Assembly: GCA_004322015.1 (NCBI GenBank)
Contig: SCQT01000170.1
Location: 1 to 64,000, forward strand
Source: Chitinophagaceae bacterium
GTDB lineage: Bacteria > Bacteroidota > Bacteroidia > Chitinophagales > Chitinophagaceae
Direction of reading: 5' to 3'
DNA: 64,000 nt
Below the pieces are notes generated by a model. The model saw nothing but the letters and a program-made list of their open reading frames with translations. It was not told the DNA's origin and did no database searches. Shown one piece after another: positions 61,923 through 64,000 of the stretch (positions are counted from its first letter, which is position 1; each line of letters begins with the position of its first letter). A program made the translations under genes and the position numbers.

Positions 61923-63518
61923 TTAATTTTTCGGGATGTGGCGCAGCCCGGTAGCGCACTTGCATGGGGTGCAAGGGGTCGCTGGTTCGAATCCAGTCAT
62001 CCCGACCCGACCGGACAAATTGGAAAGGGTTCTATTTGTCCGGTCTTTTTTAGCCGATAACTCCTTATTAATCTTATAGATATACATGGCGATTTCGTTT
62101 ACTCTGTTGGTTCGAAGTCGCTTTCCGTCAAATCTTAGTTTTTCAGGGTACATCGAACCAATAATTTTCCTTTTTTCCTCGACATCCCCCTCAATGTAGC
62201 GCCAGTCAAGCCTTAGCAAGGATTCAATTCCTTTATTCAATAAAGATTCAAGACTATCCTTAGTTTCCATATTACCCGACAATTTGACTTCCAATTTTTC
62301 CAGTTTTGCAGTATAGTCTGTCTTCATTGCACGAAAGTCTTCTACCTCAATTTTTCTTGTTGACAATAACTCGCGCGCATAAGAAAGCCGGTTGTCCAGT
62401 TCTTTGATTTCTTTCATGATTTGGCGTCTGGTCTCACTTTTATCAACAGTTATACTGTTGTAACTCGTAATAAGGCAGTTTTCGTAAAACGCCAACATTT
62501 CCTCTTTCGGGCTGTATTTCCCCAGTTCGGCAATTAGTTCTTTATTGACCTCTTCAGCCCGAAACCTTTGCTTACATCCCCCGAAACAATGATAATATGC
62601 GTAGTACTGGTTACGTCCTTTAGATTTACTGCCGGTTAGTATTTTGCCGCATACGTGGCAAATTAAAAAACCTCTTAACGGCAGTTCAGGCAGTGTGATG
62701 GATTTTGGCCTGTAATGCCTGCCACGCCCATCAAGTATATCCTGGACATCGTAAAAGAGAGGTTCCGGAATAATTCCTTCATGCTGGCCTTTCACAAAAC
62801 GGCTTTCCTCATCCTTATACTTTGGAATGAAAATCTTCCCGCAATAAACAACGTTTCGAATGGCTGTATGGAATCGTGACTTACTGCATATCAGACCCTT
62901 TTTTCTTGCTTGCCGCCATACATCATCCGTGTTATGTTGCCCTGTCTTCAACGTTTCAAATACCCAGCGCATGATACCCACTTCCGGCTCTTTAGGGGCT
63001 ATGTATTTCCTGCCGTCTTCCGTAGTTTTGTTTTCATAACCGATTGGAGCAAGTCCCATATACCGCCCCTCTTTTCTTGCTCTCCGCATTCCGAAAAAAA
63101 CATTCAATGCCCGGCGGTCATTCTCTACTTCCGGAGCCGCCAGATAAAAGGCAAGCATCATCTTGTTTTCAGGAATGCTCAGATCCAGCGGCTGTTCAAT
63201 AGCCTGAGGCTCCACCCCGCATTTCCGGAGAATATTGATCATCTGATAGGCATCTCCTGCATTTCGGCTGAACCTGTCCCATTTCGTAAAAAGCATCAGA
63301 TCGGATTTACCTTTATGTTTTTTCAGCTCGTGCAAATATTTTTTCCATTGTGGCCGATTGAATGTCTTGGCCGAATGATCTTCATAGATGACTTTTCTGA
63401 CCTGAATAGCATGCAGGTTACAATATTTGCGTAACATCTCTTCCTGGTTTCTCTGCGAATAACCTTTGTCTGCCTGTTCATCGGTACTTACCCGGATGTA
63501 TAAATCTGCTATTTCCAT
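61923..63518 (-). CDS. Large serine recombinase (integrase)
   Basis: Integrates and excises a mobile element by Ser-linked strand exchange. About 531 residues from ATG 63518 (MEIADLYIRVSTDEQADKG; a TTG at 63542 overlapping the upstream stop is the alternative). Order: resolvase catalytic domain with nucleophile Ser in RVSTDEQ, Recombinase domain (about 155-260), zinc ribbon CHVCGKIL...CFGGC, coiled coil (about 345-425). The last 35 or so residues (from about GRVGMTGFEPATP) are simply the antisense of the tRNA-Pro terminator and tRNA, so the natural C-terminus was created by integration at this tRNA. Marks the end of a genomic island that extends past the window. Confidence 0.93.
   Translation of the reverse strand: MEIADLYIRVSTDEQADKGYSQRNQEEMLRKYCNLHAIQVRKVIYEDHSAKTFNRPQWKKYLHELKKHKGKSDLMLFTKWDRFSRNAGDAYQMINILRKCGVEPQAIEQPLDLSIPENKMMLAFYLAAPEVENDRRALNVFFGMRRARKEGRYMGLAPIGYENKTTEDGRKYIAPKEPEVGIMRWVFETLKTGQHNTDDVWRQARKKGLICSKSRFHTAIRNVVYCGKIFIPKYKDEESRFVKGQHEGIIPEPLFYDVQDILDGRGRHYRPKSITLPELPLRGFLICHVCGKILTGSKSKGRNQYYAYYHCFGGCKQRFRAEEVNKELIAELGKYSPKEEMLAFYENCLITSYNSITVDKSETRRQIMKEIKELDNRLSYARELLSTRKIEVEDFRAMKTDYTAKLEKLEVKLSGNMETKDSLESLLNKGIESLLRLDWRYIEGDVEEKRKIIGSMYPEKLRFDGKRLRTNRVNEIAMYIYKINKELSAKKDRTNRTLSNLSGRVGMTGFEPATPCTPCKCATGLRHIPKN
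61932..62005 (+). tRNA. tRNA-Pro(GGG)
   Basis: Acceptor CGGGATG pairs with CATCCCG (7 of 7), then discriminator A. The D arm GCGC...GCGC encloses AGCCCGGTA. The anticodon stem CTTGC/GCAAG encloses loop ATGGGGT, anticodon GGG. The T arm has the TTCGAAT loop. No CCA is encoded. Its 3' part is the likely attachment site of the island carrying the recombinase that overlaps it on the other strand. Confidence 0.96.
62009..62051 (+). terminator. Rho-independent terminator after tRNA-Pro
   Basis: GACCGGACAAAT (62009-62020) pairs perfectly with ATTTGTCCGGTC (62034-62045), then six T. It lies within the 3' coding end of the recombinase on the opposite strand. Confidence 0.88.
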
Positions 63519-63538
63519 GACTGATACATTTATGATTT

Positions 63539-63739
63539 TCAATTGACCGATTCAGTATGGGAATCCCCAAAATCCTTTGCTGTGGCTCCTCTCAAGTGTT
63601 GCTCGACGGTCATACGAGCTAACATACGAAGAAATTTCAAAACTTCCTCCGTTTCCTCTAAAGAAATATCCACTCCCTTATTTTTCAATTTTTCCCAAGC
63701 CTGTTTTGGAGTAATTGGCTTTACTTCACGATAATCCAT
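63539..63739 (-). CDS. Small protein upstream of the recombinase
   Basis: 66 residues from ATG 63739 (ATG 63751 adds four). Helical: ITPKQAWEKLKNKGVDISLE and VLKFLRMLARMTVEQHL. Small proteins with this pattern often precede such recombinases in Bacteroidota, as I recall. Its stop overlaps the possible TTG start of the recombinase. No known function; perhaps a regulator or directionality factor (inference). Confidence 0.7.
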   Translation of the reverse strand: MDYREVKPITPKQAWEKLKNKGVDISLEETEEVLKFLRMLARMTVEQHLRGATAKDFGDSHTESVN

Positions 63740-63772
63740 CTCACATCTCACCTTTAAAATTCAAAAAGCAAT

Positions 63773-63780
63773 ACATTTGT
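63773..63780 (+). promoter_or_regulatory. -7 box of the right-end gene
   Basis: TACATTTG, 45 bp before the ATG at 63826, exact TAnnTTTG match. Confidence 0.5.
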
Positions 63781-63825
63781 AACAATAGTGCTTTAATTTC
63801 TAACAAACCTTCAAATCTTGTCTAA

Positions 63826-64000
63826 ATGAAGCGTCTATTTTTAGCAGCCCTTCAAACGAATAATCAATCGGCATTGAAAGAGATTTCCAAGCTGATTGCT
63901 CATGTAGTCAGGGATAACATGGAGGATTTTCACTTACAGCATTTATCGGATAACCAAATGAAGGAACTGAATCCGCTGATTAGAAATGGTATATATGATG
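63826..64000 (+). CDS. Hypothetical protein, 3' end beyond window
   Basis: 58 codons are visible, starting MKRLFLAALQ and continuing with helical stretches (ALKEISKLIAHVV, NQMKELNPLIRNGIYD). Soluble, no signal peptide. Divergent from the recombinase cluster, with a good -7 box, so probably a cargo or maintenance gene of the island. Family not recognised. Confidence 0.65.
   Translation, partial: MKRLFLAALQTNNQSALKEISKLIAHVVRDNMEDFHLQHLSDNQMKELNPLIRNGIYD

Follow-up and report, generated by a model that had tools for sequence, protein, structure and literature searches.

Integrases whose own gene is split by integration are known as the SSV-type suicidal integrases, tyrosine recombinases that a review places exclusively in archaea and whose two halves are described as inactive (PMC8371274). 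In mycobacteriophage BPs, attP lies in the coding sequence of the repressor, and integration removes a 33-residue C-terminal piece (PMC4557955). Integrase gene splitting and attP inside a coding gene are thus both known already, separately. Islander-type genomic islands adjoin an intact tRNA gene, have the integrase gene at the tRNA end and carry a piece of the tRNA at the other end; in 2014, tyrosine integrases were the only ones known to target tRNA genes (PMC4383910). In serine integrases, the motif bound by the zinc domain is closer to the centre in attB than it is in attP, by 5 bp (Rutherford et al., PMC3783163).

We analyzed a 64,000-nt stretch (the window) of contig C156 from a Chitinophagaceae bacterium (genome G000). 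As in the SSV-type systems, the att site was found inside the integrase gene, which integration appears to split. In contrast to them, the enzyme is a serine recombinase by Pfam, not a tyrosine recombinase with Phage_integr_3, its hosts are Bacteroidota and not archaea, and about 23 C-terminal residues are lost while a host-coded tail is gained. The domain order, the short shared core and the 5-bp motif shift between attP and attB are those of large serine integrases such as A118/LI, TP901-1, phiC31, and Bxb1; unlike in these, many kinds of tRNA are targeted, attP is inside the recombinase gene and conservation of attB is confined to its tRNA half. The gene split in BPs is the repressor, whereas in the present element it is the recombinase, with a tRNA supplying the replacement end. 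The element adjoins an intact tRNA and has its integrase gene at the tRNA end as Islander islands do, but the integrase is not a tyrosine enzyme by Pfam, and none of the far junctions examined held a tRNA 3' fragment. Among the open-licence literature, gene-splitting integration has so far been described only for archaeal tyrosine enzymes. The locus would extend gene-cutting integrases beyond archaeal tyrosine enzymes to serine enzymes of bacteria, and would add the serine recombinase family to those that target tRNA genes.

The recombinase frame crosses an intact tRNA-Pro gene

A sequence-only reading of this DNA had taken the locus for the edge of a genomic island, with a large serine recombinase integrated at a tRNA gene; this was borne out. 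A genome of the same genus (G001) has an element-free counterpart of the site. Pfam identified Resolvase, Recombinase and Zn_ribbon_recom domains, and the N-terminus contains YIRVST with the RVS serine motif of the Resolvase catalytic domain. The protein was homologous to the A118 (4kis) and TP901-1 (3bvp) integrases in the catalytic domain and in the zinc-ribbon/coiled-coil region, and the AlphaFold2 model of a relative (L078) contained long helices at 339-386 and 392-416. Taken together, a Resolvase domain with the serine motif, a Recombinase domain, a zinc ribbon and a coiled coil make up the domain set of a large serine recombinase. The ATG at 63518 is the more likely start, giving 531 aa.

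The stop-free frame runs through the tRNA terminator and the entire tRNA in antisense and ends in SGRVGMTGFEPATPCTPCKCATGLRHIPKN (also written LSGRVGMTGFEPATPCTPCKCATGLRHIPKN) and a stop codon. The same reading had described this overlap and an intact tRNA on the other strand; the former recurred in 69 of 79 relatives, and ARAGORN and Rfam both recovered the tRNA, whose 3' half is the conserved half of attB. The window ends inside the element, and contig C156 stops at 67385, still inside it.

Table 1 Coordinates of the features of the element and its target (window positions unless a contig or locus is named).
Feature	Position	Strand	Remarks
tRNA-Pro(GGG), intact integration target	61931-62008	+	ARAGORN; Rfam RF00005 61932-62005, 60.4 bits
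Serine recombinase frame	63542-61923	-	539 aa from TTG start
Element-encoded recombinase body, ATG to core valine codon	62004..63518	-	~505 codons, like relatives
Host-encoded replacement tail, tRNA antisense	61923..62003	-	GMTGFEPATPCTPCKCATGLRHIPKN, then stop
T-loop motif, proposed zinc-ribbon-domain site of attB	61984..61991	+	GGTTCGAA
CGAC, site of the crossover	62003..62006	+	sole sequence common to tRNA end, attL and far end
tRNA intrinsic terminator brought by element, inside recombinase frame	62009..62051	+	GACCGGACAAAT..ATTTGTCCGGTC + T6
Small ORF directly upstream of recombinase	63539..63751	-	ITPKQAWEKLKNKGVDISLEETEEVLKFLRMLARMTVEQHL; conserved in most relatives
Second serine recombinase ORF, catalytic domain only	L005:4423-4806 = C156:64422-64805	-	just past window end
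C-5 cytosine DNA methylase in element	L005:5173-6093 = C156:65172-66092		
Far end of the G000 element	G000:C249:1-117		

The arrangement recurs across Bacteroidota

One scan of species genomes yielded 79 recombinase loci, 56-65% identical, from many Bacteroidota. In 69 of them the frame enters a tRNA gene in antisense and in a single common phase, which makes the read-through more than a coincidence. In the shared phase the T-arm gives the peptide GFEP, GLEP, GFKP or a close variant. The same T-arm peptide was encoded at five further loci, with an intact tRNA not detected. The targets comprised tRNAs for Pro (all anticodons), Arg, Lys, Leu, Met, Val, and Gln, to which more distant relatives added Asn. 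Distant relatives (25-29% identity) were also located at tRNAs, some of them in another phase. The recombinase body up to the core was 504-507 aa in nearly all relatives. The stop codon was provided by the tRNA or by sequence past it, 35 to about 390 nt from the tRNA edge. This tRNA-antisense, split-recombinase arrangement is widespread, occurring in dozens of Bacteroidota species, and antisense tRNA would explain the GFEPATP-like ends of these recombinases.

In four loci (L042, L098, L104, and L120) the recombinase frame reads a tRNA T-arm, but the tRNA that follows is broken; about 0.4 kb further along, L042 and L098 have an intact copy of the same kind of tRNA. Ten IMG/VR contigs (L248-L257) encode recombinases of or near this tRNA-targeting family. 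The frames of several continue into tRNA-like sequence, and part of the family may therefore consist of prophages.

Crossover at the 3' terminus of the tRNA

Near-identical recombinase 3' ends located at different targets part exactly at the tRNA 3' end (L043/L089; L079/L087/L102). In G001 the same tRNA lies element-free beside dihydroorotase, its neighbour in G000 as well, and its sequence departs from that of G000 right after CCCGAC. Together, these observations indicate that the host supplies the whole tRNA. The exchange falls within the last base pair and discriminator region of the tRNA, which is CGAC in the Pro types. A crossover in the T-loop was also considered and ruled out, as genes sharing a recombinase end differ from the tRNA terminus onward.

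The spacing around this core follows the rule for serine integrases. The distance from TTCGAA to the GAC core was 12 nt in the tRNA (attB) vs 17 nt in the attP arm (C249:92-117, and other far ends), a shift of exactly 5 bp, and attP and attB share only CGAC. This suggests that the zinc ribbon of the recombinase reads the T-loop. Nearly all tRNAs have this T-loop, so such recognition may explain the breadth of targets, and these recombinases may serve as reusable tools that place DNA at tRNA genes and leave the genes unharmed.

The sequence-only reading had further predicted that the tRNA 3' end would be duplicated as an att repeat at the far end. This found no support: the junctions share only about CGAC, and a search of the whole genome for the tRNA 3' end with up to 2 mismatches returned tRNA-Pro genes only. 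The junction itself lacks the 20-mer repeat that had been predicted, TTCGAATCCAGTCATCCCGA, although a copy does occur about 155 bp beyond it, in a 173-bp tandem repeat of the host on contig C249. A shared sequence as short as CGAC is expected for a serine crossover at the tRNA 3' terminus, so the missing long repeat does not speak against an island.

Integration at this position displaces the terminator of the tRNA, which the element replaces. A strong hairpin was found in the first 52 nt of the element at 55 of 55 loci (mean -20.8 kcal/mol, vs -5.5 elsewhere in the gene), accompanied by a T-run in 95% of them. The last codons of the recombinase body thus double as tRNA terminator, and this hairpin should stop tRNA transcription from entering the recombinase gene antisense.

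The far end of the element continues the recombinase gene

To locate the other end of the element, we searched G000 with a profile of the conserved tail described below. One strong site was found, at the edge of a contig (C249:55-117, E 5e-6). The far end there reads GTGGTTCGAAAATTGTCCACTCAGGACGAC, followed by host sequence TGAAAAATAAGC with a hairpin. The other tRNA-Pro genes of G000 have native flanks and the genome holds a single recombinase of this family, so we assigned C249 to this island by elimination; C249:1 would join C156:67385 across the contig gap as the element's other end. The predicted joined gene ends in ...NLSGRV followed across the junction by VLSGQFSNHFEEDLKLLVKLQELSCY and a stop codon, and the attP predicted for the circular element is GGTTCGAAAATTGTCCACTCAGGACGACCCGACCGGACAAAT, with the frame open. 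Synteny with G001 was considered as support for C249 and rejected, as G000 lacks the LamG-like flank of G001, and the gene that comes next on C249, RpoD, does not neighbour tRNA-Pro in G001. Three tandem 173-bp host repeats lie beside the far junction (L222, on C249, 103-648), each containing the 3' end of tRNA-Pro together with the same hairpin-bearing flank. A search of PLSDB for circular or plasmid copies of the element gave no match, and a search of annotated phages gave distant matches only; neither a circular form nor a read across the junction was observed.

Far ends of the same kind were found in other genomes. In Emticicia, the junction of a tandem pair holds a reconstituted attP with an open frame, and the same left arm, with a hairpin and T-run after it, closes an element of 36 kb; a 12-kb Chitinophaga element has the same kind of end. 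The hairpin and T-run past most far ends look like the displaced tRNA terminator. The far-end arm pattern AAGTTCGAAAWTTGTACAGGNAGGRCGAC occurred in 16 of 30 genomes, and a reversed-pattern control gave 0 in all. With the exception of the frameshifted L179, the far-end arms are in the recombinase frame across the core, encoding V(V/A)LPVQ(F/I)SNLF(I/L)xDL(K/R)RLA or a close variant. Most of these tails stop at codon 24, giving a conserved tail of 23 residues and a stop (V.LPVQFSNLFI.DLKRLA..). In the AlphaFold2 model the tail is a low-confidence helix; tail peptides were omitted from the model alignment, as co-alignment with full proteins appeared to misplace them.

Both ends lie on a single contig in 19 elements, and in every one of these the tail shares the strand of the recombinase and is on its 5' side; a twentieth (L072) was left out of this count because its tail sits on another contig. 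Uninterrupted genes with such tails also exist (L078, 532 aa; L018, 530 aa). The constant placement of the tail and these whole genes therefore identify the integrated gene as a split gene. Judging from these comparisons, attP lies within the recombinase gene and integration splits it, which carries the recombinase's own conserved 3' end to the opposite edge of the island. The C-terminus does depend on the integration site, as the sequence-only reading had stated, but that reading missed this second, conserved end.

Proposed mechanism and alternatives

We propose that the element integrates by a serine-recombinase crossover at the tRNA 3' terminus, with attP inside the recombinase gene, some 23 codons ahead of the stop, a reading to which we give a probability of roughly 0.8. 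In a circle or a tandem copy the recombinase gene would be whole, with the conserved tail. Integration would park the tail codons at the element's far end and fuse the body to the antisense strand of the tRNA, so that the integrated gene would yield a protein with an arbitrary host-coded ending. As the integrated tail is preceded by host DNA, full-length recombinase would be made from circles or tandem copies. The integrated recombinase keeps all catalytic and DNA-binding domains and hence may be active.

The conserved far end might instead be a DNA site only, an attP arm with accessory binding and no coding role. Its first 27 nt, the attP arm, are indeed almost invariant at every codon position. 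Past the att arm, however, in tail codons 10-20, the difference between elements was 0.33/0.27/0.59 by codon position, with the third position highest in 11 of 11 codons, and after the tail stop it rose to 0.68/0.69/0.69, conservation ending at the stop. The excess at third positions and the loss of conservation at the stop therefore point to conservation of a protein end and not of a DNA site alone, and the tail appears to be under protein-level selection; we regard a purely non-coding site as very improbable. The same conservation up to the stop weighs against an ordinary tRNA island whose attP lies next to the recombinase by chance, with a functionless overlap and variable C-terminus, as does the continuation of the recombinase frame by the tail across attP in natural contiguous genes. 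Integrated forms do tolerate tails of very unlike length and sequence, as such an island would, and we consider it unlikely.

What the tail does is a separate question, and its role could be other than setting direction. It may be a degradation tag on the circle form only, so that integration would remove the tag and stabilise the enzyme, for which attP in the BPs repressor gene is a precedent (PMC4557955). Several tails end in LAA, MAA or IAA and resemble ssrA tags, but many others end in IAI, IAV, LNS, LAYF or KITEY, and the strongest conservation is internal (SN.F..DL), not in the final residues; a degradation tag thus seems improbable to us. More probably than any other role, the tail may act as a latch, favouring attP x attB or blocking attL x attR, so that its loss would fix the integrated state; the small protein encoded upstream would then be the candidate excision factor. 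This role for the tail is tentative, at somewhat below even odds. The fuller proposal, of a self-splitting family of bacterial serine recombinases in which the C-terminal swap sets direction, is a little more doubtful still. In it, the circle form would integrate by means of an enzyme that bears the conserved tail, and the chromosomal form, ending in an arbitrary tRNA antisense peptide, would be latched and would excise only with the small upstream protein. The split gene nonetheless offers a natural experiment on directionality, in which the same enzyme is supplied with and without its tail.

Small upstream ORF and other cargo

The small upstream ORF has the consensus PEKA.EML...G..VT.EQA..IL.FLRKLANI.V..YL, and searches of Pfam and NCBIfam gave no match to it. 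Its product may be a partner of the recombinase or a directionality factor. The last helix of this product bears a weak resemblance to the tail (column-shuffle p 0.02-0.03; hhalign P 0.0025), which would fit the small protein as a partner taking the tail's place. The element also carries the second recombinase ORF and the methylase gene listed in Table 1; in L063 and L069, comparable catalytic-domain-like ORFs lie ahead of the recombinase.

An array of 2-4 kb cassettes was observed in Flavobacterium sp. HBTb2-11-1 (L231, G096:C12:350000-369999). Within the part of the array read, a recombinase gene was not found. Each cassette is bounded by the same hairpin end and a tail-coding end, with boundaries near 359197, 362110, 365632, and 368555, and the cargo includes an HxlR-type regulator, enoyl-CoA hydratase, dehydrogenase, and AraC-type genes. 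Many similar tail sites were present on another contig (G089:C23), and the units at both loci look like cassettes moved in trans.
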